The notes below the pieces were generated by a model that saw only the letters and a list, made by a program, of their open reading frames with translations, did no database searches and was not told the origin of the DNA. 64,000 bases of DNA from Absidia repens (Eukaryota; Mucoromycota; Mucoromycetes; Mucorales; Cunninghamellaceae): assembly GCA_002105175.1 (NCBI GenBank), contig MCGE01000006.1:744001-808000 (forward strand). Reading direction: 5' to 3'. The position numbers and the translations under genes were made by a program. Below are positions 3,711-53,194 of this stretch, in pieces; position 1 is the first letter of the stretch, and each line of letters starts with the position of its first letter.

Positions 3711-6700
3711 TCAAATGGGGAGCGACCGAGGGTCAATCAAATTCAATGTATCACCAAGAGCCAAAGGAGCACCAATCAATGCAACAAAGACCACGAACAT
3801 CAATACAAATAAGAGACCATACATAATTGATATCCTACGCCGTTCCCTCCTTTCTTTTGCTGTCCAAATAGGTGGTCGTATTTGTTTGCTAGGTCGTAGC
3901 CAGAATAACATAAGAGAATGGGCGGTGTTGACGCACGGGATCAAACAAAACAAAGATAGCACAAATAATATACAATGGCCAAGTACAAAATCAGTGGCAA
4001 ATTCACTCATTTCTACAATTTTGCAGATAAATTCTCGAAGAGGCTGAGATGCGGCTAGAGACAAAATAAAATAATAATAATAATAATAATGAGTCCATCT
4101 GTATACTATTGCCAGTATGGCTATTAGGTCTGTATGTAGTCTTACCATGCCATCCAAGCTTTTCGTATTTTCGGATAAAATTCACATATAATAAAAAGTA
4201 GATTAGTACACTTGCAATTGTGTGTTTTCTTCTTTTTTTATACAAGTCCTTACCCCACGACCATACCATTTTCCAGTCCACCAACCACGATTCGCACCGT
4301 CATGCTTGAATTCTCGAGTCAAAAATACAACAGTGAGGACTTTGATCACACAGCGCTGAATGGCAACAATAGATACAATACCAAGGACAATAAACATCGG
4401 CTTCCATTCTTCCAATAGCATTAGCGCTTCGAAGATGATAATCAAGTTAATCACCGCCCAGCCGTGAGCCACTGCAGCCATCACAGAGCCAAATTTGACA
4501 CAACATAAGCTTAATACAGATCCCAAGGTCAAAGAAATGCAAAAGAAGACAGCCAAGGCGCCAGTGTTGAGAAGAATAGGAGCTAGTGCCAAAATACCAA
4601 TGCGGACAAGTCCACTTGGTCCTTCGCTTGCGAGCATGTTGTCATCAGGATCGAAACTTTTCACAAAGACATACGGAACAATGCAAAGAGCGGCCAATAA
4701 CACAGGTTGCAGGATTTCGGAGAAGAAAATAGTACCCAGGCGAGCACGCGGAATATCGCCTACCATGCCCCCATCTTTTGATTGAATCCGTCGTTTGTAG
4801 CCGGTGATCCGAGTTCGTTCAAGTCGACAATAGTTGATCCATGAGCTTTGATGAGTTTTTGAATTACCGCGAGATAGCCATCGCATGTACTCACGATAGT
4901 CCACCAAAAAGTCAACTAGTGCAAATTGATTTGGATTGAAGACAAAGGGTGAGATAATCAATGCTACCACCGTAAACCAGAAATAAATCAAATGGGGAAT
5001 CCAAACTGCCAATGAGACAAAGAGCATGATCATCATATTTCGGGCACCAGAGTATATACTTGACGTAGCAAATCGTGAATAAAGGATGGAGAAGGGAATC
5101 CTTGACGTTGCAAATCCTCGTCCGGAACTGATATACTTTGCACCACCAAAGACAAGGTTATCCAAAACGGAATTTGTGTAAATTTGGGTGACAAAAATTT
5201 CAAATAATGGAGATAAAGAGATAAAGTGGCGTCCCAGTCTTGTCAAACTTCTCCAAAACCCACGTTCAGTCAGTTCTTGTAAAAAGAGAGGCATAAAGGC
5301 AACAAAAAAGACGACAAAGATAGACAAAATACACCGCTTTACCCATTCAAAGATAGGAACCATGTTGTAACAACCAGCAGGAGTCAAAGGAGCATCTTCG
5401 GGTGCATCTGCATTGTATTCACATACCACCAATGATGATCCCATAGCACCGATAAATAGCAAGGCATACATAAACATTTGCACAGAGAGCATAATAAAAA
5501 TGTTGTTGATGTGGAATCCAGGGTGTGCATAATAGAACGTCAAAAATCGATCCAAAGGTAACTGAGTACCAATATAATAGTATTCCCGAGATAACATTTG
5601 TTCACCCATACCGGTACCAATCTTTGTCGTAAAACTGAGGATAGAACCAAAACCAAGATCGCGACCCTTGCCACATTGGAAATATTCAGTATGCTTGATT
5701 CGACCACCCCGAGTAAAGGCATTCATTCCTGCATAGATATCTTCGTTCAGATGTAAGCCTTTTTGCGCTTTACTAACACCACCACGCGTTGTCATAAAAA
5801 TGGCGTTCAAAAAATCAGGATGTCCATAATGCAGTTTCCCACCAATTTTGGCCATAATGCGCTGAGTCAGTGTACCGAATGTTTGTTCCTTGCCTGCTGC
5901 AACATCCCCAAGCACTCCGATATTTTCCGAGAAAATGTATTCCCTTGCACCGACGATGGCCACCGGCGATGTTTCTTTGCTTGCGTACGATGATGAGTAA
6001 GGTGAGTGATCAATAGGGTCCAAATTTTCGAATTCACCGAGTACATTCCTAATCTTGAGACACTCTTCCAGATAGTTGTCTTGGTTTGCGTCCACCAATT
6101 GCAAAAATTCGCCACGATAGAAAATCAATGCATGATTTTGGTTGTCAGATTTGCCGTCCCCAAGGATTGGATTACCAGGTACACGGATTCGGTACTTCGG
6201 TACACGCTTGCCATCTTCCGTCTTTTCACAATGACCATCCACTAGGGCAGAATAGAATACAGTTTCACCATCACTACCATCAGGGCCCTTGGGTGTGTCT
6301 TCATCCACATACGCCACTTGGAGATCGGGATATGCAGAGAACAGAAATTCGGCATCTTCGGCTTCGGTCTTGTTGAATTTCGCATACCGTTGCATCGCCA
6401 CCAAAAACTTGAATTTACGATTGGCCAATCGATCCAAATCTTTTTCTAACTGACTGTGGTCTTCTTGATAGCTGTTCACACTGTCTGGATTTTCCACCCG
6501 AAATAACAATCTGATAGCCTTGCGATAGTTCATAAACCCACTGATAGTACGATACAACGTTTGTGCCCTCAGAGATGCCCAAATTCGTGTTCGTAGGGTA
6601 TATTCCGGTTTTGACGACTTGAATCCAATACAATAATAAGGTAGATCATCGATTTTGGTTTTCGCCATATCTTTTTCAGGGGCCCCTGAGAATGTCGATT

Positions 6701-9700
6701 CGCTTCGATTGATATCTTCGTTCATTTCCTCGTCCGCCATAATCTTGGTGTCCTTGACAAAATTTTCCCATTCGGCAGGGTGTAGTTGTTTGAGATATTC
6801 CAGTAATGTCACCCGACTGTGTATATCGTCTTCTCGAATAATTTCACGCAGAGTCAACAGTATTTTTTCACCATAATGAGGCTAGAAAACAACAATAAAA
6901 CGATTTATAATTAGAACAATCCGATGCATATGTTTTTGAAACGATCAGGAGGGGAGGGGGAGCAGACTTACAGTGAGTACAGTAAATGATGGCATACATT
7001 CAACAGGTCGTGGCGGTGGCATCGGTGTGGTAAGACTTTGAGCAAAAAAGTGAATACGTCGTTCTGCTTCACTATGTTTGGGGAAGTATTCAGTCTTGAA
7101 TGCGGTATCTTCTTGTGAGACGAAAAAGGTCGGTGGTTTCAAAGTTTTCCGTCCATCTGTAGAATTGACTTCCTACAAAATACAGATACAAAAAAAAAAA
7201 AAAAAAAAAATCAGTCAGTAAAAGTATGATAAGCAAATATCCACAGTCTCTTATTTATATTTTACCTGTTGATAAAGCATTCGTTGGACGTGATCAGCCG
7301 TAATCAAATGTTCACGGTACATAGTAATAACAATGGCATTCCATATTTGAGAACAGAGGACCTTGGGTTTGTATTTGATTTGAATATCAGTGGTAGCCAA
7401 TAATTTGACAAACACCCGTTTTGGGAGCCTTGAGAAGATATTTCGCCAAGGAGACCAGATTGAGATACCAAGATAGAAAGACCTTGCCACTGAGAAAACA
7501 GTATTCCAGATGATGTACCATAGGTAAGTATCCAAGAAATAGAGAATCAAATCCATCAAAAACATGAGCACAATGGTAATGGAAGGCATATAATCACATA
7601 ACAGTACACCTAAGATAGCATCATTGCAGTTTTCAATTTGCATTCTAGACATGACCTTGAGAGGATCTTTGAAGGAGAGAGCCAAGAAAAAGTAAGATTC
7701 CAGTAACTTGCAAGAGAAGACACAAATCCAAAGACAGATAGACATGATACGATCGATTGGTTTCAATGGTGGGAAGTTGGCGGTAAATTGTCGATAGGCA
7801 AGAGTGTCACGGTAATGCATGTCTCGCCTAGTAAAGAGAAAAGCTGACGGAGTAAAGACCAAAAACAAAGTTGTCGCTATGCTGATGAGGAGTTGAATCA
7901 TAGCTACCAATTTCGATGTAAAGCTTGTTCGATCAATGAAGACACAATAAATAGAAGGACCTGCATTGATGATAAGCAATAAAAAGAGCAGCCCAATACG
8001 CCTTGTGATGGTTTTTGTACTAATCCATGACATGGGCAAGTATGTCAGTTCTGCAAAGGATCCAATCAACATAATCATAACCGCTACAACACCACCAAGA
8101 GCAACAATCGACCACTGCACAGCAGATTCTTCATAGGCAATTTCCGGATCAGGATCCAAATACATTGTCGGAGCGTTTGCGCTGATATAGTACCAAAAAG
8201 ACACCACGTGGATAATCCATACCCGAGTAAAGTTGATCGAAGCGTGCATCCATGACCGTTTTTCCTTGTATGTTTTCCGGAAGGTCTTTTTCCAATCCAC
8301 TTTATAAAGAGCATGGTACCGAGCATGAGGTTCTAGACTTGCCAGTGTTGTTTTCTTGTCATCCACGTATATTCGTTCAAAGCACTTGGGATGCCAAAAG
8401 AATTGATTCACATCGTCATATCCAATCGTTTGATCATGATCCCTTTCCCTTTTCACATATCGGCCATCACAATTTTCATATGTTTGGTCACGGAAAAATT
8501 GGTAGAAAGGTGTAACAATGTTGTCCAAATAGGCACCATCTTCTGCCCTGTCCACGTTGTCCAAGTTGTCCACGCCTTTGTCGCTTGAGTGATGCCTGTC
8601 ATAATCACGCGCATTCTTGTAGATAAAACAGAGAGCTTCAGGTGTATATCTAATAGCAGCAGCCTCCCCCCACAGTAGCAGATATAACGCCAAGTCCCGC
8701 ACCTTGTCTTCATTGGAGAGTCCACGCATCCTGAGCAGCCATGTCGATTCCGCAGACTTGAGCCAAGCGATTTCATCATTGTTGGTTTCTTCTTTTTCTA
8801 GTTTCAGAGTTTCAGGGTCACGATCCATACAGTCCATTTGAGCAGCAAAATACCATTTCCGATAGTTTGCCTCTTCACCGCCAATATAGTCCGCATGTAG
8901 AGAATCCAATGCCACCTGAGGGCGCAGTCGAGACGATCGAGAATCCAACATAACCATGAGGTGATCATACATATTGCTGACACTGTCGTTTTGAAAGCCA
9001 AATTTTTTCCCCAAAGTACGCATAATGGCTCCAATATCATCACATGTCATGGGGGGATCAGCGCCAGGAAGGCCGGAGCCAATCCATGAAGGATACTTTG
9101 CATCACCAAAACCACGCAGATTGTTGTTCCGGACACCAGGATCGTGCGACGAGCGAAGTTCATCAATGGATGTCGTACTTTCAGAGATTTTGTTCCGATA
9201 TTTTTGGCTTTGGATGGCAGCAAGCATAGAATCAGCAGAAGTAGCGTAGCGCATATATCGATCGTCGGTCCCATCCACTAAAGCAGCTAGAACGTCTACA
9301 TCACAACCATCATCCTGGACATAGTTTTGTGATTGTATCGGTGGCGGTTGCAATATTCCTGTGGACAGTGTTGATGAGCTGTGATGTCCATGAGTTTGAC
9401 GCTTGGTGGAAACTTCCAAACATAATAGTAAAAAAAAAGAAGAGGAAGAAATTGAGTAAAAAAAAAAAAAAAAAACCAAGAACAAAAAAAAAAAAAAAAA
9501 AGTACCATCAGGTTCAGGCAGTGTCGGTGGTTCAAGATTCTCGGCAGTCTGAGAATGAAAGTTTGCCTCTTTCATGCTGGATAATATTTTAGAGAAGAAA
9601 AAAAAAAAAAGAAAATGAGATCTCAAATTAAAGAATATAAGTAAAACTATGTAAATCACGTACTTTGAATAATAAGAGTAATAGGCTTGTATTTCTGGAA

Positions 9701-9980
9701 AATCACCTTTCGGAGACTGGACATTTTCTACTGGGTCTTGTCGCTTTGATAATTTTGATGAAGAATGATTTTTGCCCGATTGAGATTCTTGATCGATATT
9801 AGAACCAGGTAAAAGAGTAGAACCGTTTCTGGTATTGATGACCGTTTTCGGGCTTATATGGCGAGACTCTGTTATACTGGGTTCTGTATCATCTACGTTT
9901 AGGGAATTTTGTTGCACGGTGTTGCTTTTGTAATCGTCAGTAGCAGGTTTTTGTTGTAGGTATTTGGGCTGGGCTGACAT
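3711..9980 (-). CDS. FKS1: 1,3-beta-glucan synthase catalytic subunit (Fks1 family)
   Basis: Plasma-membrane UDP-glucose 1,3-beta-glucan glucosyltransferase, the cell-wall glucan polymerase. About 1906 aa, close to the yeast length (~1876). Exons 9980-9664, 9576-9506, 9412-7266, 7172-6972, 6881-4254, 4158-4146 and 4054-3711 join in phase. The N-terminal ~130 residues are polar and variable. The Fks dom1 block ([18 protein letters not shown]) starts near residue 220, followed by a first membrane cluster. The glucan synthase domain starts with [17 protein letters not shown] (~850) and includes [19 protein letters not shown] and AYVDEDTP. The C-terminal membrane region ends with [21 protein letters not shown] and [13 protein letters not shown]. 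The start is the first ATG after a non-coding stretch. Two 5' introns are stop-free multiples of three. It lies upstream of, and parallel to, the RAX1-like gene. Confidence 0.96.
4146..4158 (-). other. FKS1: 13-nt microexon of FKS1
   Basis: On the minus strand the sequence is ..aaaag|CTTGGATGGCATG|gtaag.. It is phase 0 to phase 1 and encodes LGWH plus the first base of Ala. It joins WYGRG to AASQPLREF, matching the conserved order in Fks proteins. Skipping it breaks the frame before the last membrane segments. Confidence 0.85.
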
Positions 9981-10483
9981 TTCGAAAGGAAATTGTATAT
10001 GGTATCAAATATGAATAGATAAAGGTGACAAAAATAAGGGTTATTTTTTGTCTTAAATAGAGGGCGTAGTCCTTTTTCTATCTCTTCCTATTTCTATTAT
10101 CTCTTGTCACAGGATGCAAAAGTCTATTGAAAATGGAAGGATAATATTGTGCTTTAAAAAACGACAAACGCTTTCTGAACAAGTAAAAGAAAAGTGAGTG
10201 GAAAAGGATACGGAAGGGAAAAAAAAAGATATACGTAAAATCCAAGAAAAGTGCGATGAGAAGGAAAGGGAAAAACAATCAAATAAACAAACCGGGAAAA
10301 AGAAATAAAGGCGATACTTGGTTGTATTTAAAAGCAAGAAATGTATTGTACTGGTAAATCATTCGTCTCCCTCCCACGTCAAAGTTTAACTCCAGCATAT
10401 CTTGCTTCGATCATCTTGTTGGTATTTTAACGATTGCGACTCAGAAATGAGTCGAGTATATAACTTCAAAGATTCACTTTCAG

Positions 10484-11103: not shown

Positions 11104-12523
11104 CTATAATCGATGAGCTGGGATGAATACAAATATAATGGTAGTGACAAAGGCTATCAAAAAGTTGCCTACGCAGAAGATAAACGCCCGTTTCTGATGA
11201 ATCTTGATCACAGTCTTATCCTCTATAGGAACAGATACCAAAAAACTTGTTTCACTATATAGTATAAATGCACAAATATTGTATTAAAACTAACGATTTC
11301 ATCGGCCTAGTGTTTCTTTTCTAATACCTTTTCTTTGACCAAGCATACCAGCAGTCAAAATGTGTCACACCAGTTAATAGTCCTGACCAGCTGAAAAAAA
11401 AGGGGATAAAGCCATACCACCGAGACGCCGTATTTCCGTGATTCAAAAAGATAAAAGACAATTCCAGAGCTATCCCAAGAGTCAAAAGCAAAAGTCCAAT
11501 CATCAAATTGAGTCTAGCGGAGGTTGTTGACATATTGGTGTAAAGAACAGCATCCACAAACTGAGGGTAATAAAACATATTAAGCACATCAAATACGTGG
11601 GATCTTGCTGCATCAAAAATCACAGGTTCTGGTCGTTGATGTGTTTCCACCAATTTTTCCAAAGCGGCGCGATGATCGTCGGGTAGGTGGATGAGTTGTG
11701 CTGCATCGTATCGACTGCAAAAGGTCCTGTAAATCCGTGTTGCGTTTTGTACTACATCATGTCGAGAGAGTGATTTGTCACCAGGGAGTGTTCTTGATGC
11801 GTAGGATTGACTGCAGTTATCGCCGTTCATTACTGAAGAGAACGGTAGATGAGACTGGCTGGATTGGTGTAACAAATCAAGTGTATCAGAAGTTTCAAAA
11901 TAATCGGTGGTAGGACTCCATTGTATTGGCATCGTCGCTGGTTGAACTTCTTCTGATCCTTTTAAGAATTGTTTGCTGGCTCGGTTTGATTGAATTTCTG
12001 GTCGTTGTTGTCGCTCCGCACTGTTGAGATAAGCTTGCCATAATCTTTGATGTGTTTCCAGTTCCAATAAAAAGTTAAGGTTTTGTTGCGCACCCCGTCG
12101 TCGTAAAAACGCAGAGAATTCAGATTGAGTGATAGGACTGCTTGTCGATAAGCGTAATAGCTGGTCCAAAGTTGGGATACCATTGACTTGAAGATTATAA
12201 TCCTTCATTTCTTGCCAAGCTTCCATAGGTGAGAATGCAAACGGATCTTGTTGATTGACTAGATCAGCTTGGCTCATAAACGATTTATATGGGTTGTTCG
12301 AATGTCTTCGATCGTTTTTATTTCCATCTAGACATTTCAAAGGAATAACTGGTGCGTTTTTTTCTTCCAGTTGCTGTTGCAAGGTGAGGTCACTTTCAAA
12401 TGCTGACTCTAGTCCGCGTGGGTATAGTCGACTGTTGGCTTGGCGAATACTCCACTGTCGAGTTGGTGGCATTTGCTCGCAAAATGTTGTATCACTGGAA
12501 GGTGAAAGCATAGTTTGTTTCAA
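11104..12523 (-). CDS. RAX1: RGS-domain membrane protein, RAX1-like
   Basis: Two exons, 12523-11328 and 11254-11104, give about 448 aa (yeast Rax1 is 435 aa). The N-terminal ~90 residues are disordered. An RGS-type helical region follows, starting GIPTLDQLLRLSTSSPITQ and SEFSAFLRRRGAQQNLNFLL, split by a polar insert and resuming at RHDVVQNATRIYRTFC through HVFDVLNMFYYPQF. The C-terminus has three hydrophobic segments: LMIGLLLLTLGIALELSFIF, FIPFFFSWSGLLTGVTHF, and a last one in exon 2 (FIFCVGNFLIAFVTTIIFVF). Split RGS followed by C-terminal membrane helices is the Rax1 architecture; yeast Rax1 marks the cortex for bud-site selection with Rax2. The start is the ATG of MKQTM; a further 5' exon cannot be excluded. 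Confidence 0.8.
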
Positions 12524-12844
12524 AAAGCAAAAGAAAGTGAAAAAAAAAAGAGAGCGAAAGATTGATTAATTTCATCAGTCTACTCCTTAAACCTCTCACC
12601 TCCTTCCTTTGTTCCAGTCGGATGTTGAATTTTCCCATTATGCGATTTGCCTGGAAATGTATGGTAAGAAGACATGACATATTTTATTCAGGTGTATATA
12701 TCAACAATGACAACTATACCAGATTAAACTATATAATCTAAAAGATAATTTTATGGTACCTATCTAACGATGTGACTTAGGGGGTTGAGTGCGGTGTTTG
12801 TGAAAATGAGAATATCTTGTTGTAGAATAAACTTAACGTAGGGC

Positions 12845-23557: not shown

Positions 23558-25808
23558 CTACGTGTTTTCATGCACATCTTGACTATCTATTGTTGTTTGC
23601 TGATCCGACGTTTCTTCCACTTGTGGTTCTCGCTTTTTCTTCTTCTTACTAGGTGGTTGATTCATCTTGTTCCAAGTCCGCAAGCAAATATTATCCGTTC
23701 GTCCAGGCATATGTTCAGCAATCACCGACCATTTTCGTCCATGTTTGTTCACCAGTTCCTTGAGCCTTTCCATTTCCTCGGGAGTAAATTGACCGTGCAC
23801 CAGATTTGGGTCCAAAACATTCGTCCATCGTTCCCGACACTGCATATCTGTCCGGCCAGGGATGTGCCGTTGTATATAAGACCAGGCGCCCGCACCATAC
23901 ACAGCCACCGAAGCTTTTAACGCCGCATCTTCTTCGCTTGTCCACCTTGATCGACGAATCGCAGGATTGATGGACTTCACCCAGCGATGTAAGCATTGTT
24001 GCCCCGAACGTCCACCTATCAAGACAGCCACTTGTTGCCAATTTCTTTCCCCGATGAGCGCTACAGCATCCTGCAAAGCTTGGTCGTCTTCCGCCGTCCA
24101 TGGCCGCTTTTGATCGTAGCCTTTGAATTTTGCTTGATAATGTGAGAAACATTGGCCTGCTGTGCGATCGGTTTTCAATTCGCTGGCAATACGTTCCCAA
24201 TTCCCCTCATAACCATATAATTCCACCAGTTCACCCAGTTCTTTCGATTCTTTGTTTTTCCACGGTGACTTGTTGATGGCTGGATGATCTTGCGTCGTCC
24301 ACTGGATCATACAGTTCATTGGTGGTTTGGTCTTGACCTAAAGAGTATTGAGTTGTATAGATTAGAAAGGGGACATGAGTACATCGATCAACATTGACCA
24401 TTTCTCTTGATTTCAAAAAAAAAGGACTTACATAGAGGGAGCTGACCCGATTCCAATCCAACTTATCCACAGGATAATTTTCCCATTCTTCCCTAGACAG
24501 ATTGTCTACTTCCCAAACACGCCATGGTTCATTCCTATCAATATTAACATATTAACATAATATTAATTGATTGACCAATGAGTGTGATGGTATCCTCTCC
24601 CATCCTCTTTTTTTTTTTTTTTTTGCACGAAGTTCGTTACCTCATCACATGTTCATAAGCGAGTATCCGTTGTACTTCTGAATGGATCCCAGATGATAAT
24701 TGTTCTCGTTCCTTGACGGACCCTATAGCATGCGAAATAAATAGATGTCAAGTATTATGGTCGATCCTTTTTGCCAAATCCACTTTGAATTCATCCACTT
24801 ACAATTCCGCACTCGCTCACTTTCCAATTCCACAGTATCTTGTCTATCGCCCAGAGATATTGGAGTCTACAAAATATCGTTGTCAGTGATATTACATAAA
24901 GCCAATATTTCAAGTCTACTTACGTTTCCTTCATTATCCATAAAGAAGTCATACTTCTCCGAGTAATATTTGTGGATATCCATTCGTTCACGTTGAATTC
25001 TAGCTTCCTTTATAGACAGTAACCGAGTCATTTTCTATAAAAAAGAGAGAGAGAGAGAGAGAGAAAGAGCAAAGACAGTTAGTGAATGGTGATACCATAT
25101 ACATATGATATACAAATACGAGATACTCACCGCATACTCATCATTTTTCGCCATCTGTTTGTCGATCTTGTCTATTTGAATTTTCACCAATTGCTGCAAT
25201 TCTTGATTCAGCCGCAAGGCCTCCATCGCTGCGGCCTGGTCTTGAGGGAAGGTGTCCGTTGGTAAAAATTCCATGTTTGGCATATCCATTAAAGCATCCA
25301 AAATATCAAAGATCGGGGCCGCATTGGGGTCATATGGTGCTGCTGTTGCTGTTGCTACTGTTTCTGCTGCTTCTGTTGTTGTTGACTGGTCTCCCAAACT
25401 TTCCACGAGTTGCTGAAGGAATGTGTGCTCTGCAGGAGTAGATGGTATATTGTTTCGACTGATTGTTTGATTAACGAATGACTCCTCTTCTAAGGTGACC
25501 GGTTCTGTTGTTTCGTTTTCTTCTGTTGTAGTAGCGCTTTTCGTGTACTTCCGTGATGATCGCTTTTTTCGTTTGTGTTCAGTATTTCTTGTTGCAGGAA
25601 GAGATCGTTTTTGCTTCCTGGATGCTGTTGCTGAGATCTGATTTTTCTTTTGAAGGCGTTCTCTGTTGATTTGGTTCGTATCAGTGTCCATTGTTGTTGA
25701 CGTCGAGTCAGTTATGTTATGTTGATTGTCGATGACATTTCTATCTTTTGCTGTTTGCGACCTTGTCACCCGTCGAGTTGATCGATTTGTTGATGATCGT
25801 TGAGGCAT
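23558..25808 (-). CDS. Myb-repeat protein similar to SNAPC4 (snRNA promoter factor)
   Basis: Exons 25808-25131, 25034-24924, 24866-24803, 24722-24641, 24534-24432 and 24337-23558 join in phase to about 605 aa. The basic, disordered N-terminus has KKRS/RR-type nuclear signals. A helical middle (KMTRLLSIKEARIQRERMDI) precedes DWNRVSSLYVKTKPPMNCMI and then Myb/SANT repeats: WKNKESKELGELVELYGYEG, WTAEDDQALQDAVALIGERN, WTSEEDAALKASVAVYGAGA and FTPEEMERLKELVNKHGRKW, with motifs such as RTAGQCFSHYQ, RSGQQCLHRW and RTDMQCRERW. A partial first repeat (DWNRVSS..., HPAINKSPW) plus full repeats is the SNAPC4/SNAP190 layout, the DNA-binding subunit of the snRNA-activating complex. A general Myb regulator remains possible. 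The start is the ATG after a T-rich leader; an ATG further 5' in the same frame (25946) would add an implausible Phe-rich leader. Confidence 0.82.
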
Positions 25809-26161
25809 GATAACGCAAAAAAAAAAGTACAAAAAAACAAGGAAACAGAAAATAAAAAATAAAAAATAAAAAAAAAAAAAAGAGCGATACTTCAAAATCC
25901 CCACATACCAACACCCGCTCATATTATCACTACGCATGAAGACCACAAAACAACCTCATTTAAGGCATATATACAAAAAAAAAATACTTTATTTAATTGC
26001 AAAGTAGCCCCCCCCCCGGCATGATAAGGGAAACTACAAATAACAATGACGGAAAGATGCTTAAAAAAAATAAAAAAATAAAAAAATAAAAAAAAGAGGT
26101 GCGTAGTGTAAGTAAAATATATAAGGTAAGATAGTAAAAAAATAAAAAGGTATCATGCAAT
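25809..26161. other. short spacer: promoter of the SNAPC4-like gene and 3' side of the kinase gene
   Basis: 353 bp of A-rich DNA with several A runs and repeated AAATAAAAAAATAA blocks near 26068-26095. No gene seen. Confidence 0.4.
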
Positions 26162-26794
26162 CTAAGAGTCACCCGGTCGTAATATATTTCTAGATCCATT
26201 GCTTGCAGTTTCACCATCAGCACCATTACCACCACCGGTTCGCCTGCTTGACCTTTTCATCGCCTTTTTGTCTTGAGCAGGTGTGGATGTTGTTACCGAT
26301 GAATTTCTTACTGTTGTTGTATTATCATTGTCATCAAACCCATACATCGTCTTGACCTTTCTAGTAGCACGAGTTTCCGACGAATACATCTTCCATTCAT
26401 TTAGCAGGCCAATCCGTATGTCATCTTGCCCAATCCAATTCAATATGTCAGCAGCCGTTTCACGATCTTGAGGTCGAGTTCGAAGACATTTCAGTAGTAA
26501 TTGCCGACTAAATTCTCCATGCACTTCATGTTCCAACGCCCTTTGAATTCGATAATCATCTTCGGCCACATAACGTAACCCTTGTAAATCAGTATCCAAA
26601 ATCCCGCGCCATGGCTCCGTTTCCGTGAACACCTTCCAAATCATTACCCCAATAGAGTAGATGTCTTCTGATTGAGGGTGGATCAGCCAAGGAAGAACCT
26701 GAGTATGAGATCGTGTCTTAGGCAGGGTCTGAATTGATCTACAAATATATATATATATGTATATGCATTTATTAGTAAAAAAAAAGGACCACCC

Positions 26795-26833
<39 letters not shown>

Positions 26834-29800
26834 TAAGTGGATGATTTACCTATACATTCTATAACCATGATCAGGTTTGCCTTTCACCCAAGGAAGTGAT
26901 TCACACCATAGTTCCAGCTCTTCAGTAGTTTCAGGAACGACATCGCCATCATATTCGCCAGCAGATCGAGGTATATCAACAAACCATTCACGGAGATCTT
27001 GAGCATCACAAAACACGGCTTTACCAAAATCAATCAGATAGAGACAAACTTTGCGATTGCCATCTTCCAATTCACCATCTATTGTATTGACCATAATATT
27101 GACTTCTGAAAGATCACGATGAGCGAGCCCAGCCTTGTGTATTGTTTTTATGCAATCTAGCATCTGATAGACGATGTCGTATTTTTGATAAGCACTTAAT
27201 CGATGGTGAGAATGGAGATGCGTATGCTGTTTCAGAGTTGTTTGATATCTATTAAAAAAAGGAGTTATGAATACATCGCAGTGACCCATTTATTTATTTC
27301 TCTCTCTCTTCTCTTTTCATCATCATTTCTCATTACCTTTCCATTGATAAACCAATGATATCACCGTTGTCGTTGTGCAGTACTTCTCGCAGTTGTGCCA
27401 TATGGGGTAAATTCCGCAATTTCCTATAGTATATAGAAGAAAAAGCTTTAGTATGTTGACAATTACAATACATATACCCCCGCCTCCCGGATACCTTTTA
27501 AATGATACTTACATAAGACATGCCACTTCGGTAATTCTTTGATACATTGTCATCTGTCGAAATGTTTGTACAACCACATTTTCCAAAAAGTAAACTTGTT
27601 TAAAAAATCCTTCAGAATCCGGTAAGTTCCAGTTCAGATGACCATACTTTTCTTGAACGTTGACCAGATTAGCACCTTTGCTGGTACAAACTATCATTTT
27701 TTTTTAAAGAAAAAAGGATGAGTGGTCACGTAATCAAACACTGTTAATGAGAAATTCCTTCTTTTTTTCTCTTTCTTACCATTCAAAAGTTTTTGCCAGA
27801 CGTCATGTAACATTTCCGATTTTCTTGAAGTGAATGCTGGTACAGTTGGGATGACTGTTTCCAAGGCTTTGACCTGAGGGGAGACAGATGAGGAGATAGA
27901 ATCGGGAGATAATGTTGATCGTTGATGTTCCTTTTTATTGACCATGTCCTGTTGTTTTTGCGGTTTGCCGTTTCCACCCATAGATTCATTTGCTTCCCCA
28001 TCGTCATCAATATATATACAAGACGGTGAGACTTGGCCATTTTCCTGTTTGAAAGTCGGGTTTTTCTTTGTTGCTGCTGTGCGTCCCCGGGAGCCTCCAA
28101 CTGACTTTTGTTTCTCTATTTGCCGATATTGTTGTTGTCGATAAACCGCTGCAGTTCGCACGAAGTCGTGGGTCTGAGCAAATTCGTCATCATTTTCCTC
28201 ATCATCATCGCCACCGCCACTGCCGTCGCCATCTTCCTCTGGAAGATCCAATAACTGCTGTACCATCTTCTTCAATTTTCGCTTCGTGTCAGTTTTGCTG
28301 CCGTTCGGTGCCAGTTTGTTGTCGTCCGTCACCATCAGTTTACACGTCGCAAACAACCGTCTAAAGTAATCCTTTTCAATCGCTTCGTTCACTTGAAACA
28401 CCAGTTTTTCCACCACACGTAAAGGCCGCAGGTGAATCCATCCTTTCGGCGCATAATCGTCCGTTTGGTCAATGTCAAAGAGAGGGCTAGCCGGGTAAGT
28501 GAGTACCATATCGGTTTCCACCTTATACAGTTTTGATCCAGTGCGTGTTGTCTTTGTGTTGTAAAATATAGCCAATACACCTTGAGCCCGGACTTGCCGA
28601 AGTAAAGTGCGATTCTTGGCGATATAAAACCGTGGCACAGGTGGATGATTTCCGAAAGGATCTTGTTTCATACGTTCCACAGCATGGAAGAATGGCCCGT
28701 TGAGCTGTATGTATAGTTGCTTGTCGTAAGTAAGTCCTTTAGGTTTGAGTGCTTTTGGTTCCAGTGGTGAGATTGCTGCGATGCTATAGACAACACTAAT
28801 AGGCGCAAAACATTATTTAATAAACATATGTCAATCGCTCCCCTCCCCCCCTTTTTTTTATTTCCTTCTATTTACCTTCGCTTTGAAAATACTTGTTTCA
28901 TTGGTGGATACGAGAAATCAGATTCTTCAGGTAGTGAATCAGATGTGTCGAATTTGTAGTCACATGAACCGCCTTGAGGTCTACTAGATACACTTAAAAC
29001 ATTCAGCACTGCGCAATTCTTTTTCATTTCTTTTCTTTTGCAATTACCTAATTTGCTTCTTCAGATCACTGATCACCTTGTAAAAAAGAGCTTCCAAGTT
29101 TTCGGCGTGTTTAGGTATTGCACCAGCATTTCGGTGAAAAGATTTTGCATTTTTCCAGATCAATTGCATGTCTTGTTCAAATTTGGCAAAGCGAGTATAC
29201 AAGCCATTCCACATGTTTTCTTCAATGGTCGATAAATCCATAGGGTATTTCACTTCTTGATGATAGAATGCGGCTGATGCAGGGACAGGTTGAATAAATG
29301 GCCAGCAATCCGTTGTCGACAAAAGGATGTTGAGAATGAATCGGTACAGTCGAAGAAATAATCGCGTCACATTGGTTGGGGTTCGATATGTCACCGATGT
29401 TAAATCGAATGTTGTCGTGGTTGGTTTCGTGTCGCCTTTCTCTATCCTATTTCCAATGCCTTTTGAGTTTCCAGTAAGCGCCAAACTTGATGATTGCTGA
29501 TGCTGAAGATCGGATCCAATAGGGTGATTTCCAAATTCAGTAGTTGGTTTTGACAAAGAAGGCAAAGATGTTTGCACAGTATGGATGACGATGTTTCTTG
29601 ATTTCAGCCCCATAACAATCATTCGTTGAAGAGCCACCAAGTCACCATTACAGATTTGAGATCCTACGGTTTGAGATACTTCTTTATCGCCCGAAGTGCC
29701 CAGAATCATAGCAGTAATCAATTGCATGGCAGCAGCAGGTAAAACTTGTTCAGAATCTGTTGATAAAGATTGTTCCACATCCACAAAAGGTAGTTCATCC

Positions 29801-31205
29801 ACAGACATGGTAACACCCAAAGTACGGAGAATGGCTACCGTCAACCGTTGTAATTGTAACATATCCAATTCAGGTTTCATAGGGTCCCTATCGTCCTTCA
29901 CGCATGGCCGTGGACTTTTAGGTCGTCGTTTCTTGATGTGAAGCCGTAATTCTGGTCGAGGTTGTAGAACTGGTTTCGGTGCAGGTGGTGAGCGTGAAAG
30001 ATGAATGATAGGTTTTGCATATGTCGTTATTGTTGAAGAAGTAGCGGTTGGATGACTGGGCGCTTTTGAAAGGATATTGTCGTCGTTATGTTCTGACATT
30101 TGCTCGACTATATGGCGGGATCTAATTGGTGTTGGTGTAGAGGAGCTCTGAGCAAGTGGTGTGGTGGACGGTGAAGTTGTAGTATAGGATGAGATTGGTA
30201 TAATTGATGGTCCGGGAGATTTATTAGTAAGCGCTGGTTGATCCTGAGGTTGCTGTAATGACGGTATTGATGAAGATGTGGCCGTTGAAGTTGTTGGAGT
30301 CACTGCGGCTATCGAAGTTGAAGCAATTGTGGAAGTAGACATGTCAAAAGTGGACTGATATGGAATGTTGTATATAGATGCTGGATTGATAATCAACGAA
30401 TTGTCCAGTGTGCCCTGATCCATAAATCGGCTCTTCTTTGTGATAACTGGTGATTTTGGTGAAGGTTCAATACTGATGGACGAATGTGATCGCTTTGGTG
30501 ACGATAAAACTGGTGAAACGGTGTGATTTCGTGTAGTATTATGCATGTTGTTGTAGTTTGCTGAAATCACTGAGATATTTTGCAATGGCGAGTGACTCGA
30601 GTGAGGTGATATCGCTAAATGTGTTGGACCTATAATATATTAAAAAAGAAGTGGAAGGTATTGCTTTAGTACCATAACAGTTTCGTATGTAGAACGGTAC
30701 CTAATGGAGATTGAGCTTGAGTACGGGAATACAATGGTTGATTTTGATGTTGTTGTTCTAGGTATGAAGAATGCATAGATTGATATAAAGATTGTTGTTG
30801 CTGTTGCTGTTGCTGTTGCTGTTGTTGTTGTTGTTGTTGTTGTGGTTGTGGTTGTGGTTGTTGTTGTTGTGGTTGTGGTTGTGGTTGTGGTTGTTGTTGT
30901 TGTTGTTGTTGTGGTTGTTGTGGTTGTTGTTGTGGTTGCTGCTGCTGCTGTTGTTGTTGTTGTTGTTGTTGTAAGATATACGTTTCTTGGAAAAGTTTTT
31001 CGATATCTTCGTTAATATCCATTGAAGCTGCTGGACTAGAAGTAAAAGGTAAAGCCGGCTGCGGTGTTGATATATCGTTTCCATTGCCGGGAAGTAGTCC
31101 AAAGGAATCCAAGGCAGAAGATTTCCAATATCCACCGTTGCCCATCATGCCGTTAATGGAGTTCAGAGATGAGTCAGGGTTGTCCGGTAAAGACCAGTCC
31201 TCCAT
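26162..31205 (-). CDS. PolyQ + bromodomain + protein kinase multidomain protein
   Basis: Eight exons (31205-30701, 30629-29048, 28983-28876, 28795-27780, 27690-27513, 27423-27337, 27248-26850, 26738-26162) join in phase to about 1483 aa. In order: MEDWSLPDNPD start; a Gln/Pro tract near residues 78-140; a disordered Ser/Thr/Pro region; an atypical bromodomain near 590-695 (WPFIQPV, YPMDLSTIEENMWNGLY, NAKSFHRNAGAIPKHAENLE); a conserved-looking region of unknown function near 735-860 (KGLTYDKQLYIQLNGPFF, HLRPLRVVEKLVFQVNEAI); an acidic/basic linker; and a kinase fold near 1075-1400 with HRDLSEVNIMV, LIDFGKAV and SEDIYSIGVMIWKVF. The Ala-x-Lys lysine position reads VVVQ and no Gly-rich loop is evident. 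A chromatin-reading kinase or pseudokinase is inferred. A second start near 28671 (MKQDPFGNH) could split it into two genes. Confidence 0.8.
30792..30972 (-). repeat. CAA/CAG/CCA triplet tract encoding poly-Gln/Pro
   Basis: About 180 bp of minus-strand CAR codons with interspersed CCA, giving long Q runs broken by PQ steps. It lies inside exon 1 of the bromodomain-kinase gene and stays in frame. Confidence 0.95.
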
Positions 31206-32000: not shown

Positions 32001-34269
32001 ATGCTTTTCCGACATTGCCCAGTATATGGGACTTCATCTCCAAGCTTACTCAATGAAATGCCTACTCATTGCCTTGACAGTAATTAAAAAAAATGTCGGT
32101 GTTTGTAAAATCATATGCGATTGACTAAACTTTTTACCAGATCGAAAGACAGGAATTGTCAATGACATTGACCATATAACTACTCATAATTGGATAAAAG
32201 TATGATAAATTTTGAATATATTATAAGTTTGAATATTAAACTTTTTTGTTCTAAAAAAATAGAGATTGAAATGCTTTTACAAATCCAAACGAACTTCACC
32301 TGTAAGTTACTCTTCATACATCACAAAAAACTATTCACAGGAAAAATAAATTCAAATTCCGCTTTTTTCCTCTCTTCTTTTACGTTTTTCTTTTTAATTC
32401 AAATGACAGAAACAGAACTTCAGCACCAATGAAACTACTTCTACGCTATTCAATTACAAACAAGATAGACCTGATGTGGACTCCTGTTTTCTTATGGGAT
32501 CTACGACATTATTCCCTTTATCTGCCATTGATGCTGAGGCCATTTATCAAGACGCCTCATTGTCACGTTCTTCTTCCGAATTGCCACTACAACATTCACA
32601 TTACGATGCGACTAACAAAGACAGTCAACGGACCACATATATTTCTAACGACAAACAACTTCCATTTTCTCACGAAACAATTATTGAAAAACCGGAAACT
32701 GCAACTGTCGAACAAGGAACCACACTTCTTCCAGGGGACTTGGCTCAGGGGACCCGACACCAGCATCAGCAGCACCCTCAGACGCACCCGCACCAACATC
32801 AACAACCTGACAAAAAGGAGATCGATTTGCTCCCATTAGATGTACAGTATGCTTTGTATTCTCAACATTTACGTGATTCAACTGATAAACTCTCTTTAAC
32901 GCCGTCGTCGTCGTCGTCATCATCATCAGTATCCACAGCGTCGGGTAACACACAATGCAGTCGGATTAAATATGAAAAGAACAGGGATGCAGATAGTAGC
33001 AATTCCACTATGCATTCTCTTTACAGCACATTTGCAACTTCAACTTCCAACGACATCCACATGATTCAATACATGCAACCTGTTCCTTATGCTTCTCCGC
33101 CTCCTGAATGGTCCGCTTTGAATTGTCCCTCTTCACCTCGACGCCCGCCGCCTGAATCACCTGTAATGCATAGGGAGGACGATACACAAATACCTTCCAA
33201 TACGGACCACCCAACTGTGTCAGATGCATTTTACACTGAAACTCTTGCAAATGACTTTTGGCTTGGAAAACAAAATGTGTGTGAACCGGAAAAAGTGGCC
33301 ACTTGGCTTGGAACAAAGTAAATATAGGATAGTGTGGTTAAAGGATATCGAAGGAAAGATCAATATGAAATGCTTACCTAAATTTGACATTTTTCTTATA
33401 GCGATCCCTTCCGTGCTGCTGTTCTTAAGCTATATATGAGCCATTTTGACTTTGGAGGTGTGCCACTGGATGAAGCATTTCGAAAGCTCTGTGCGAAACT
33501 CTTCTTTAAGGCTGAATCTCAGCAGATGGATCGTATCATTGAAGCCTTTGCGAAACGATACTGGAAATGTAATCCGATTGAATTATATCATAGCTCCGGT
33601 AAGGTTTGGTTGTTTCTTTAAAAAAAAAAATAGTTGAACTTTTGCAAACACTTACATTATCTATGTGAATTTAGATATCGTATATGCCATTTCTTACTCG
33701 TTACTTTTGTTGAATACCGATCTGCATGGCGTGCATGAACATCATCACAAAATGAAAAGGGCAAGATTTGTCAAGAACACCATGGAAACCATCAGTACAC
33801 TTGTCTATCCTAATGCAGCAATGAACTCAGCATCACCGCCATCGATAACAAAATCACTATCCGGCCTTCGCTTGCGGAAGTCAAAATCTCAGCATAGCTT
33901 GGCGACATCATATCGGTCATCTTCCAGACCCTCTCCATTGCATGGTGACAAACTATTATTCCAGCAGCAAACAGATCAGGCACCAAATGACAGCGATGAT
34001 GATAATAACAATCATGACAAAAGTGACAGCAACATCAACACCAACAACAATAGCAGCAGCAGCAGCAGTAGTAGCAAGGGCATGACAGAAACATGGGGAA
34101 GTCAATCATGCAATACACCAAGAACGGCAACAAAGTCGCAATCTCTAGCTGATCTTTCCTTTTATCTGAAAAGAAGACACTCGGTGATGGTTCAATTGGA
34201 TCAAACAACGGATCAAAAACAATGGATGGCCAATATGGAGCTTTTATTGAAGGTAATACAATTAGCGCT

Positions 34270-34304
<35 letters not shown>

Positions 34305-35651
34305 CTGATTTTTATGGAGTGGCGGTTGCTTTGCTTTAGGATATGTACACGTCTATCAAATCAAGGGAAATTCTACGACTGTCTTCCTCGACCAATGGCA
34401 TGACATCTCCTTTGCAAGACCGGAAACAATTTTCTTTTTACACATTGGCGAATGAAGCAAGGGCGAAACGTGCTATTCGACGAAAAAGGGGGAAAAGTGC
34501 ACCACCAGCATCCAATGCAATATCACTTAATTTGGGCAATTTTGGAACTCCGGACAAGGATAACAGCAAACAACAGCAACATCGGCAGCAGCCAACACAG
34601 TCAACACAGTCAGCGTTACAGAAACATGATAGTATACGAAATCCAAACCACATAACCACTACCACTACCAGCTACTCACGAGACAACTTTATCCTACCAA
34701 GAACCGATTACACACAAATGGAAGGCTGGGTAATGCGAAAATGTCTAATGCAAGGAACTCGACAAAAAGCAAAACAAAGAAACTGGATACGATGCTACTT
34801 GAAAATACATGATGGAAAATTGACAATGCAATACCATGATCGTAGGGTCTTGTCCGGGCAACATTGGCTGAACACTATCAAACACCAAAGCGATGATAAG
34901 ATTAGCAGGGTTCCATTGAATAAGGTAAATAAATGAACTCTGAATTTTTTTTTCTAATCACTGCTGACTCTATATTATTATTACTATTTTGATTATTTTG
35001 ATTATGTAGCAGGATTCTTTTGCACTCAATCATAGTCTATCAAGGATCCTACCTCCACCAGGATGGCATAAACAACGAACACATGTGGTTTGCTTACAGA
35101 TGACGGATGGAGCCAGTTGGTTATTTCAAGTGCCTTCCAATCAAACAGCACAGGACTTGATGCGGGGATTGAATTATCAAGCAGCACGGCATAGCAAAGA
35201 GCCTCTCCAGGGTGCAGTGACCAATATCGATTATGGTTGGAACAACAACTCCACAGAGAATCATCCCTCATCTCAGCTACTGACATGGGAACTGCCAATG
35301 TCTTGTATGATATCAAGTCAACTATCAACACTAGATCAACTACATTCTATTCATGGCTATATTGAACGACTCTCTGGTTGTGTAGGACACCATCGAGATC
35401 TACGACGCCTTGTTGAAAAAAGAGTAAGCAAAAAAAAAAAAAAAAAAAAAAAAAAAGGAGGGTAATGATTTTATGCAAATTTAAAGATTTATTGATTTAT
35501 TTTATGACGGATATAGTTCTCCCCGCGGACCGCCAATGGAATGAAAGCAATGACCAACTGGGAATTGAAGATGCAATACCTCTTATTTGAAAAAATCAAG
35601 TTCCAGACGTACTATGAAATCTTGGCTCCTTCGCTGGTGGACTTGGTTTAA
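32001..35651 (+). CDS. Arf guanine-nucleotide exchange factor with Sec7 and PH domains
   Basis: Catalyses GDP-GTP exchange on Arf GTPases at membranes. Exons 32001-32079, 32141-32199, 32263-32301, 32410-33317, 33402-33598, 33675-34252, 34340-34924, 35010-35423 and 35517-35651 join in phase to about 997 aa. The first three small exons give an N-terminus starting MLFRHCPVYG. A long disordered region follows. The Sec7 domain is near residues 330-460: FDFGGVPLDEAF, then KAESQQMDRIIEAFAKRY with the catalytic Glu finger near residue 400, and motif 2 YSLLLLNTDLHG. A PH domain starts YTQMEGWVMRKCL and RNWIRCYLKIHDGKL and spans the 34924/35010 junction. A C-terminal coiled coil follows. Sec7-PH-coiled coil is the EFA6/PSD and fungal Syt1/Yel1 layout. 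Acceptor 35007-35012 is a NAGNAG pair, adding or dropping one Gln. Confidence 0.9.
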
Positions 35652-37101: not shown

Positions 37102-38322
37102 TCATTGTCGTTTTAAATACATCAACTCCCTTTTCAGCTGTTCAGTTTCCTTGACGAAATTTTCTTCCCTTTCATGTAGATGACTAATATATCCGACAGC
37201 TATATCAAGAATAAAACATGTATGAGTACGTGACCATGCATAAATACCCAGCCCAGAGACCCCTACTTTGTACTTTTTTTTTTCCTATTTTTCATGATAT
37301 ATCTTATTTTTTTTTTTTTTCATGCATTTTGATTTTTTTGGTTTTCTACCTTTGCTAAGTATTTCCCATTTACTTGTTTTCAGTCCCTTGTCCACCGGAA
37401 GCAGATCCCGTAAATCATCAAACAAGTCCTTCATTTCTTTGCGTCGTTTTCGCTCTGCCAGTTTATGACTGACACGTAATTCGGGTGATCTTGAATAAGG
37501 TGCCTGAGTGCTGAATCTTCTGGAGGGCGGAGATGACATGATAGATCCTGAATTGTTGATCGTTGAGTAGGAGGTAGTGGTAGATGAGGTTCCATTGAGT
37601 GATGTTGGTGGTGGTGGCGGCGTAGAATAGTTATCATACCGTGGTTCATGATGAGGTGAAGAGCATGTTGATGAAGTCGTCGAGGATGGATATGAGACTG
37701 AATCCCTCCTCATTTGAGGATGATGCTGTTGCTGCTGGTGGTGGTTATGATTGGTTGGCGCAATTGCAATCGAGTGCCGTCGTAAGTGAGCATCCTCTAA
37801 TAACAAGCTTGCTGGTGATGAAGTGTGTCTGGTTCGAGTCATTGTTGGCGTATGATTGGTGCTGTGGGTGTTATTGGCTGTTGGGTGGAAAGGTGAGAGG
37901 TTGAATGGTTGTTGCTGTTGTTGCTGCTGTTGCTGTTGTTGTTTTGAGTGCATTTCACCTGTCAACTGACTGATGGAGGGTAAAGAGTCCCTTCTCCAAG
38001 GTAAGTGTAATGGTGAAGAAGGGGTAGATATAAGGTCAGGGCGGTGCTCCAACGGAGAAGGCCGATTCAGGGTATGTGATGGTGAGGATGGTGGTGAGCT
38101 TTGGTTAGACGATCGAGTAGAAGTGTCAATCATGGAACCTCGTCTTGAATTAGAGGGACTTGGAGATGCATAGTGACTTGGGTTGGTTTGAGTGCGGTAG
38201 GTTGCATTGTTTGGAGGTTGAAGAATTCTCGAGTTGGGATCCAGTGATTCATAATCCATAGCCTTATGTGTTACTTGGTCATCTTCATGAGGCGGTGTAG
38301 AATAGTGGTTTGAGAGAATCAT
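37102..38322 (-). CDS. Basic helix-loop-helix transcription factor
   Basis: Two exons (38322-37350 and 37199-37102) joined in phase give about 356 aa. The first ~280 residues are disordered, rich in Ser/Pro/His with a poly-Gln run and several RRxS motifs (RRGSMI, RRDSL, RRHSI, RRDSV, RRFST) that look like basophilic-kinase sites. The bHLH domain is C-terminal: the basic part [19 protein letters not shown] carries the H-E-R DNA-contact pattern expected for E-box binding, followed by [20 protein letters not shown] and GYISHLHE. A heptad-like helix follows to the end ([15 protein letters not shown]). The intron falls inside helix 2. The target and pathway are unknown. The start is the ATG of MILSNHYS; in-frame sequence further 5' is poly-Phe and unlikely to be coding. 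Confidence 0.88.
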
Positions 38323-38883
38323 TATGTAAAACAAAACAGGACAATGTATATGAAATAAATAAGTATAACGTGTAAAAAAAAGAAAGAGAAAGAGAAAGAG
38401 AAAAAAAAAAAAGAAAAAGAAAAAGCTTGTTTTCAACGAAAAAAAAAAAATCAACAAAAAAAAAATAGTGGAGGCATCAACTCCGCCCAACACGTGCGTT
38501 CAAAGAAACATGTGCTGTGCGGTTTTCCCACATAAACCCAAATTTCTATATCATATATAAAAAACCCAGTCGTTCCGTTACAGTATTATACAATAACTAA
38601 TCCTTTTCACAATATATCCCCCACCCACATATCCAATTGCTTTCTCGTGTAATTGACACACAAAATCAATCAATAATCAATACTTTTTCATTATTCCCCG
38701 ATACAATAACAATAAAGTATTAGTGTTATTAATTAAACATCAAAATAATGGTAAAGTATAAACTAGCAGTATAATAAAGTAAATATAATTAAGACTTGAC
38801 TATAGAGTACCAATCCATCGACTGTGAAAACCCAATACAACCATTCCCAATAATAGCACCTAGCATCCGGAGTCAAATCTATT

Positions 38884-51820: not shown

Positions 51821-52381
51821 GATGAATTGTCTTATTTGGGGGGAGGAGGGAGGAGAAAGGGAGGACGAGAACTTATGTAAGAAGCAGGAGGACACGGAAG
51901 AAAAAAAAAAAAAAAAAAAAAAACGGATGAAAAGAAAAAATGGACGGGGATTTAAATTTTTGAAGAAGAATAGAGAAGTAGGTAGTGTGGCTTTTTTTTT
52001 GGAAATGGTGGGGGTGTTAGTGGAAAAAAAAAAATAGGAGATCGTCAGAAAGCATTATTTATATGGGATAAGGTATTATATATTCTCATGTGGGTTTACA
52101 ATGGGGGAGCCATCCTATTATAAAATGGTGTGATTCAATCTTTTTAAGGAAAAAGGGAATTTGTTGATACTCGACCTCGTCCTCCCACCCCCAAAAAAAC
52201 AAAAAGCATGGCAGGCAGCATCCCCTTTATCTGATATTTAGATTAAAATCCCGCATTTTCCATTAATGCTTATAAAAACCATCTTTTTTAATTTTTTTAA
52301 TTTCTCATTTCTCTTTTCCTTTTCTTCTTACTTTTATTTATTCAATCGTTCTTTTTTTTTTTTGAATACTGATATATCATA
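51821..52381. promoter_or_regulatory. divergent promoter, RRP43 / MIG1-like
   Basis: 561 bp between head-to-head starts. An A23 run (51901-51923) and several CCCC/GGGG tracts (52010, 52177) are present; no gene seen. Confidence 0.45.
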
Positions 52382-53194
52382 ATGGAATATCAAGCAGCAA
52401 ATCAATTACTATGTTTATCAAATGGTAATCCACAACAACAACCGTACCGGCAGCTAGATTCCAAACCAATCGTCACCAAACCGAATGTGCCAAGACCTTA
52501 TAAGTGTCCATTATGCCCCAAATCTTTTTATCGTCTGGAACACCAAACTCGTCATATTCGAACACATACTGGAGAAAAACCGCACAAATGCCATTTTAAT
52601 GGATGTGAAAAACGCTTTAGTCGATCGGATGAATTGACACGCCATGTACGTATTCACACCTCACCCACCAAACGACGGCCAAGACAATCTACAACAAAAA
52701 AACAACAATCTTTTTCTTCAACATCATCTTCAACAGCCATGCCAACGACCATTAACACTTCAGTGCCACCTTCACCAGCGATGTCAACAGGGGAAACATC
52801 TGATGTGGACTATTTATTAACACCCGACAACTCACCCACCTTATCATCTCGTCATTTAAAAATGATGCCCAGTATGGTGAACAAAAAACTGACACCACTT
52901 GAATGTAAATGGGATTATGCTCTTCGATCTTATGCAGCAACGACAACTACGACTACAACTACGACAACTACAACACCACCTGCTTCTGCTTCGTCTTCAA
53001 AGGATATTTCTTTATTGGCACTCCTCGATCGACCGCCACAAGCACGTACTTTACCTCCCATTGCTTCAATACCACAACCACCATCATCAACAGCAGCGGC
53101 GACAAATATTCCTTACACTGATGTACTTTCCCTTGCATCATCCCCTTCTCCAGCTCTATCTACATCTTCCTTATCCAACTCCCCTCATATTTAG
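52382..53194 (+). CDS. MIG1: C2H2 zinc-finger repressor, Mig1/CreA type
   Basis: A single exon of 270 aa. Two classical C2H2 fingers near residues 42-92: [20 protein letters not shown] and [20 protein letters not shown], joined by a TGEKPH linker. The finger-1 helix RLEHQTRH and finger-2 helix RSDELTRH are those of the Mig1/CreA carbon-catabolite repressors, which bind GC-rich SYGGGG sites. A basic stretch follows ([14 protein letters not shown]), then a Ser/Thr/Pro-rich tail with a Thr run (ACN repeat, 52938-52973). Glucose repression is inferred from the fingers; the tail does not identify the exact paralogue. Confidence 0.9.

Follow-up and report, generated by a model that had tools for sequence, protein, structure and literature searches.

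Putative chromatin-tethered kinases of Mucoromycota join a bromodomain, a conserved middle domain and a kinase fold lacking the beta3 lysine

Does a locus within a 64,000-nucleotide (nt) stretch of the Absidia repens genome (contig MCGE01000006.1, positions 744,001 to 808,000, hereafter the window) encode one protein that combines a bromodomain with a protein kinase, and what could such a protein do? A preliminary description, made from the letters of the window, had proposed a Gln/Pro tract, a bromodomain, a region of unknown function and a kinase or pseudokinase fold in a single product. As judged from sequence, one frame carries the bromodomain, followed by a conserved middle domain and then by a complete kinase fold, in an order retained across Mucorales, Umbelopsidales and Mortierellales. 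The kinase has lost its beta3 lysine, an invariant lysine lies at the WNK position and the remaining catalytic set is intact. We consider it reasonably probable that the gene belongs to a Mucoromycota family of large, probably nuclear, kinases tethered to chromatin, with predicted activity, location and ligands. The family has so far been seen only in Mucoromycota.

The gene model consisted of eight minus-strand exons between positions 31205 and 26162, forming one open frame of 4449 nt and 1482 amino acids (aa). The seven introns were all GT..AG, 67-111 nt long and with matching phases. The acceptor of exon 3 was set at 28980; the alternative at 28983 is likewise workable and gives 1483 aa, in agreement with the eight exons of matching phases and the length of ~1483 aa first described. 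The features are listed below, with residue counts taken over the 43 rows of the family alignment.

Exon 1, 30701..31205, minus strand: start codon (MEDWSLPDN), short conserved N-terminus and Gln/Pro tract; the start is also kept in the paralog on contig C12.
Exon 2, 29048..30629, minus strand: Ser/Thr/Pro low-complexity region, conserved helical domain and bromodomain.
Exon 3, 28876..28980, minus strand: 105 nt (108 nt with the acceptor at 28983), conserved linker from the bromodomain to the middle domain.
Exon 4, 27780..28795, minus strand: middle domain, acidic linker and start of the kinase region.
Exon 5, 27513..27690, minus strand: kinase N-lobe.
Exon 6, 27337..27423, minus strand.
Exon 7, 26850..27248, minus strand: catalytic loop HRDLSEVN (Asp1203, 27113-27115) and DFGK (Asp1231, 27029-27031).
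Exon 8, 26162..26738, minus strand: kinase C-lobe, basic C-terminal tail and stop.
Domain before the bromodomain (aa 418-520), 29575..29883, minus strand: predicted to be helical, with conservation confined to the main Mucorales clade.
Bromodomain (aa 600-677), 29104..29337, minus strand: WPF shelf, with His667 (29134-29136) at the acetyl-lysine Asn position.
Middle domain (aa 732-915), 28243..28794, minus strand: motif R-x-[YF]-[IV]-x-K-N-R (aa 786-793) and Trp850.
Kinase domain (aa 1062-1395), 26426..27804, minus strand: exons 4-8.
Lys1100, 27599..27601, minus strand: invariant, at the WNK-type glycine-loop/beta2 position (43/43; WNK1 register).
Gln1111, 27566..27568, minus strand: occupies the usual beta3 (VAIK) lysine position (43/43).

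The presence of a bromodomain and a kinase fold in one product was borne out by Pfam, with PF00439 at E 4.4e-17 (62.3 bits against a cut-off of 21.7) and Pkinase at E 1.7e-15 (57.6 bits against 31.7). The Absidia repens protein has a single bromodomain, with matches in the PDB that included PBRM1, TAF1, BRD4 and others. BET-type and TAF1-type proteins had been named as the closest concepts, differing in layout, and this distinction held. BET proteins (BRD2/3/4, BRDT and the fungal Bdf1) share the bromodomain, and kinase activity has reportedly been claimed for some of them. Whereas BET membership implies two bromodomains and an ET domain, Pfam detected one bromodomain and no BET domain in the family protein, which carries a recognisable protein kinase domain. 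TAF1 is likewise said to unite bromodomains and kinase activity in one protein; its core (which we take to be PF12157) and tandem bromodomains contrast with a protein where Pfam found neither that core nor a second bromodomain, and where the protein kinase domain is recognisable. The order of domains was not found described among the papers listed by searches of the open-licence literature, and Pfam listed no family spanning the whole protein, in keeping with the earlier statement that no described family was known to show it.

It had also been suggested that the same order be sought in other Mucoromycota, and there it was found. When residues 430-1390 served as the query of a homolog search, 46 proteins were found, 40 of them with both PF00439 and PF00069 (35 named species and two further sources). 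From their genus names, we take the 35 species to be all Mucorales, Umbelopsidales or Mortierellales; the best match came from Absidia cylindrospora (72% identity). Glomeromycotina, Zoopagomycota and chytrids were absent from the named matches of this word-based search, which could miss them. Four proteins (P0043-P0046) matched through the bromodomain only and are not part of the family alignment, whose 43 rows comprise 42 homologs and the Absidia repens protein, with colinear domain order. Two of the 42 family matches (P0033 and P0034) had no bromodomain and may be truncated. Three members (P0007, P0009 and P0018) bear the public names histone acetyltransferase or kat2b; their records list no acetyltransferase domain, and the histone acetyltransferase name is a misnomer.

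The 47.4 Mb assembly of Absidia repens (Mucorales, Cunninghamellaceae; 79 contigs, the window being C56:744001-808000) contained at least four copies: the gene studied on C56, C12:534929-539367, C14:371215-373938 and C1:3744299-3747040. The C12 copy is the nearest paralog (88% identity over the kinase C-lobe) and grouped with A. cylindrospora in a tree of the kinase C-lobe only, built from 25 of the 42 homologs and the four Absidia copies. The C1 paralog is divergent, with three separate ORFs (open reading frames) and DFN in place of DFG. A kinase-like fragment was also seen at C29:336985-337161.

The continuity through the 108-nt exon, considered the key link in the preliminary description, was upheld. 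Compared with the C12 paralog over 33 codons, exon 3 showed 82% aa identity, with proportions of nonsynonymous (pN) and synonymous (pS) differences of 0.09 and 0.72, respectively, in a comparison where synonymous changes were near saturation throughout. Since pN is far under pS and the aa identity reaches 82%, exon 3 is read as coding. Elsewhere the bromodomain was 92% identical to C12, the middle domain 80%, the kinase exons 86-90% and the disordered linker 45%. For 12 ORFs of the sources "jgi" or "lgn", the alignment to the homolog P0012 ended at residues 286-288 and the ORFs terminated 0-18 residues further on; the exon 2/3 junction of the Absidia repens gene corresponds to P0012 residue 286, and proteins of these sources commonly represent ORFs terminating within an intron. 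The homolog P0012 ("jgi", 1007 aa, 3606-base contig, 33 members) was unbroken across junctions 2 to 7, and so was P0027 ("lgn", 1178 aa, 4484-base contig), which, given how these sources were presumably made, suggests spliced cDNA or an intron-free gene. The C14 paralog holds the middle domain and the kinase within a single 991-aa ORF with a bromodomain exon upstream. It is annotated as a 247-aa kinase; on the DNA, that kinase-only model is a truncation.

Some annotations weigh against a single polypeptide and would fit two adjacent genes, a bromodomain protein and a kinase, wrongly joined by our model. Apophysomyces has two halves on the same 34,997-base contig, P0095 (683 aa, bromodomain and middle domain) and P0050 (331 aa, kinase); P0107 (611 aa) has no bromodomain; and 36 proteins match a kinase alone in length, a species being named for 15 of these (8 of the 15 marked "partial" and one from Endogone). 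The preliminary description had held that relatives with the halves as separate genes would refute the fusion. Such halves do occur as annotations, but the C14 copy, the sole case that could be checked on DNA, proved to be a truncated model with its kinase in the same ORF as the middle domain. The joining error is also opposed by the presence of both domains in 40 of 42 long matches, the constraint on the linking exon and the unbroken P0012 and P0027, and we regard it as extremely improbable. At the sequence level, the splicing, the purifying selection acting on exon 3 and the conservation of the design across 35 named species support a single polypeptide that runs from the tract through the bromodomain and middle region to the kinase.

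The earlier alternative of "kinase or pseudokinase" could be narrowed, since the domain looks active with a migrated lysine, Lys1100. H1201, R1202, D1203, N1208, D1231 and G1233 were found in 43/43 rows and F1232 in 42/43. The possibility that the fold is a pseudokinase scaffold, binding partners or nucleotide without phosphotransfer and leaving the chromatin work to the bromodomain and middle domain, draws on the missing VAIK lysine (Gln in every row), on the degenerate glycine loop (SEGFFKQVY, with one Gly left) and on the DFN of the C1 paralog. The invariance of the other counted catalytic residues and the lysine at the WNK position in every row speak against it, as does the activity of WNK1 and POMK with such migrated lysines, described in PMC10211241; we hold this scaffold role to be possible but rather doubtful. 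A divergent WNK family member with added reader domains would explain the equal lysine position (GFFKxVY in the family, GSFKTVY in WNK1) and the absent beta3 lysine. Yet the beta3 residue is Gln in the family and Cys in WNK kinases (WNK1, WNK3), the family carries a bromodomain, and no WNK appeared among the best 60 of 607 PDB matches of a kinase profile of 6 sequences (MAPK, RIPK1, CDPK, ULK, MARK, PknB and others), nor among the 50 matches listed by Foldseek and by VIA (for VIA, with the long model). WNK membership thus went unsupported by those best 60 matches and seems very unlikely; a migration of the lysine convergent with that of WNK, i.e., independent, looks more likely.

For the bromodomain, the question is whether the Mucorales copies still read acetyl-lysine. 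PF00439 matched 36 of 38 members at E <= 10. The conserved acetyl-lysine-binding Asn is not present in the Absidia repens protein, where His667 takes its place; of the 43 rows, 32 have His at this position, 7 have Asn (P0036-P0042, Mortierellales), one has Ser and 3 have a gap. The Asn-to-His change in Mucorales suggests that acetyl-lysine reading is altered or weakened, and reading by these copies is uncertain because of this split between His and Asn. That the Mucorales domain has lost the reading function and acts as a protein-protein module, with targeting left to the middle domain and tail, fits the His found in 32 of the 40 rows having the column. Against such a loss, the Absidia repens protein keeps WPF and PMDL, a conserved His could still hold the ligand, and few parts of the protein are as constrained as this domain (ratio of nonsynonymous to synonymous rates 0.034, besides the high identity to C12). 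The WPF string was absent in 19/43 rows, at least 2 of which have no bromodomain in the record. We find the loss quite possible but somewhat less likely than not, and it is compatible with a chromatin-tethered kinase.

The "region of unknown function" could be refined to a globular domain, with a predicted EVE/YTH-like fold. An AlphaFold model of aa 732-925 had a pLDDT (predicted local distance difference test) of 86 and a pTM (predicted template modelling score) of 0.82, and its structural neighbours were EVE/YTH domains. The structure and middle-domain alignments covered 38 of the 42 homologs (P0015, P0016, P0022 and P0035 were left out of the structure alignment). A further middle-domain alignment used 12 sequences. 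In a scan of 12 middle domains, the EVE (PF01878) and YTH (PF04146) profiles gave no match at E <= 10, the one match being a chance hit to DUF3980; hhalign of the middle domain with four EVE sequences gave P 0.31. The middle domain differs from the modified-base readers VcaM4I, THYN1, Mmi1 and YTHDF2 in showing no significant sequence similarity and no identified base pocket residues. An alignment with EVE made by eye (KNR motif, Tyr-Pro, Trp strand) looked good, was unsupported by hhalign and serves as a structural lead only. The EVE profile had no match in the Absidia repens genome; the YTH profile had none either, a result that is uninformative because the YTH control was silent in every genome.

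The middle domain may act as the reader of a modified base. EVE and YTH domains are described as readers of modified bases, YTH also of N6-methylated adenine (m6A) in archaeal DNA (PMC7641849, PMC7897488), and N6-methyladenine (6mA) is reported in promoter regions of Absidia repens (PMC9279130, citing Mondo 2017). According to a 2026 review (PMC13297926), a canonical 6mA reader has yet to be identified in fungi. A reader-writer could be imagined in which the middle domain would read 6mA, a mark set near promoters by Absidia repens and by further early-diverging fungi, the bromodomain would sense acetylated nucleosomes and the migrated-lysine kinase would convert both into phosphorylation. The fold link to EVE/YTH is weak; 6mA effects appear, in the same review, to act via nucleosome positioning and transcription-factor binding and not via readers; removal of symmetric 6mA in Mucor is reported to have left nearly all of the affected genes unchanged (PMC11258239); and further fungi that carry 6mA, Rhizophagus (described in PMC8298701) among them, were not seen in the named homolog matches. 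We judge this reader-writer unlikely. Were it true, the protein would represent the first fungal 6mA reader as well as a novel type of chromatin kinase, and any modified-base binding by the middle domain would bear on the open question of fungal 6mA readers.

In the explanation that we favour, a chromatin-tethered kinase, the enzyme would be active using its migrated lysine, the bromodomain and middle domain would hold it on chromatin, helped in some members by AT-hook-like tails, and it would phosphorylate nearby proteins. The design may give these moulds their own route for writing signals onto chromatin. The migrated catalytic lysine, which appears to be a further and probably independent case beside WNK and POMK, would test how often kinases relocate this residue. 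As for the tails, GRP[KR] AT-hook cores were found in 15/43 C-terminal tails (mean 0.33 and maximum 3 in 500 shuffles; two rows have no tail), with 0/43 in heads and 0/43 in linkers. The tail of the Absidia repens protein is basic and has no GRP[KR] core.

Other kinases showed partial likeness. With the fungal FunK1 kinases (PF17667), 16 of 38 members matched weakly at E <= 10, and the FunK1 catalytic loop, HRD-x-S, is presumably similar to that of the family; the Absidia repens protein scored 12.4 bits, under the curated cut-off of 24.1. The bacterial methylation-associated defence kinase MAD6 (NF047741) was the best partial NCBIfam match in the three members scanned (E 1.6e-11, 1.3e-11 and 2.5e-12 for P0012, P0025 and P0039), but at 43-46 bits against a cut-off of 460 and over the kinase core only. 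A prokaryotic origin, suggested by this match, was pursued with two peptide patterns on genome contigs, and 0 of the resulting 117 stretches were confirmed; a scan of a plasmid collection for a prokaryotic relative gave no match.

The Gln/Pro tract is real (aa 79-137, 30795-30971), but as a long tract it is incidental to Absidia repens and not general in the family. Its longest Q run is 17, against at most 10 in 42/42 homologs, some of whose records may lack the N-terminus, and the closest paralog has a shorter tract in the same place. The helices before the bromodomain were seen in the structure model of P0012, and aa 386-520 share 78% identity with the C12 paralog. A run of TA dinucleotides, 34 bases long, lies in intron 7 at 26797-26830 (minus strand), with a shorter run at 26745-26758.

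Directly downstream of the gene lies a basic ORF (25038-25955, minus strand) with no Pfam match at E <= 0.001, followed by an ORF with four Myb-like DNA-binding repeats (23561-24337, minus). The window also holds 1,3-beta-glucan synthase (FKS1) exons (4206-10004, minus) and ORFs with an RGS domain (11324-12565, minus), a Sec7 domain (33638-34336, plus), a helix-loop-helix domain (37288-38499, minus), a C2H2 zinc finger (52373-53191, plus) and a kinesin domain (56789-57778, minus).

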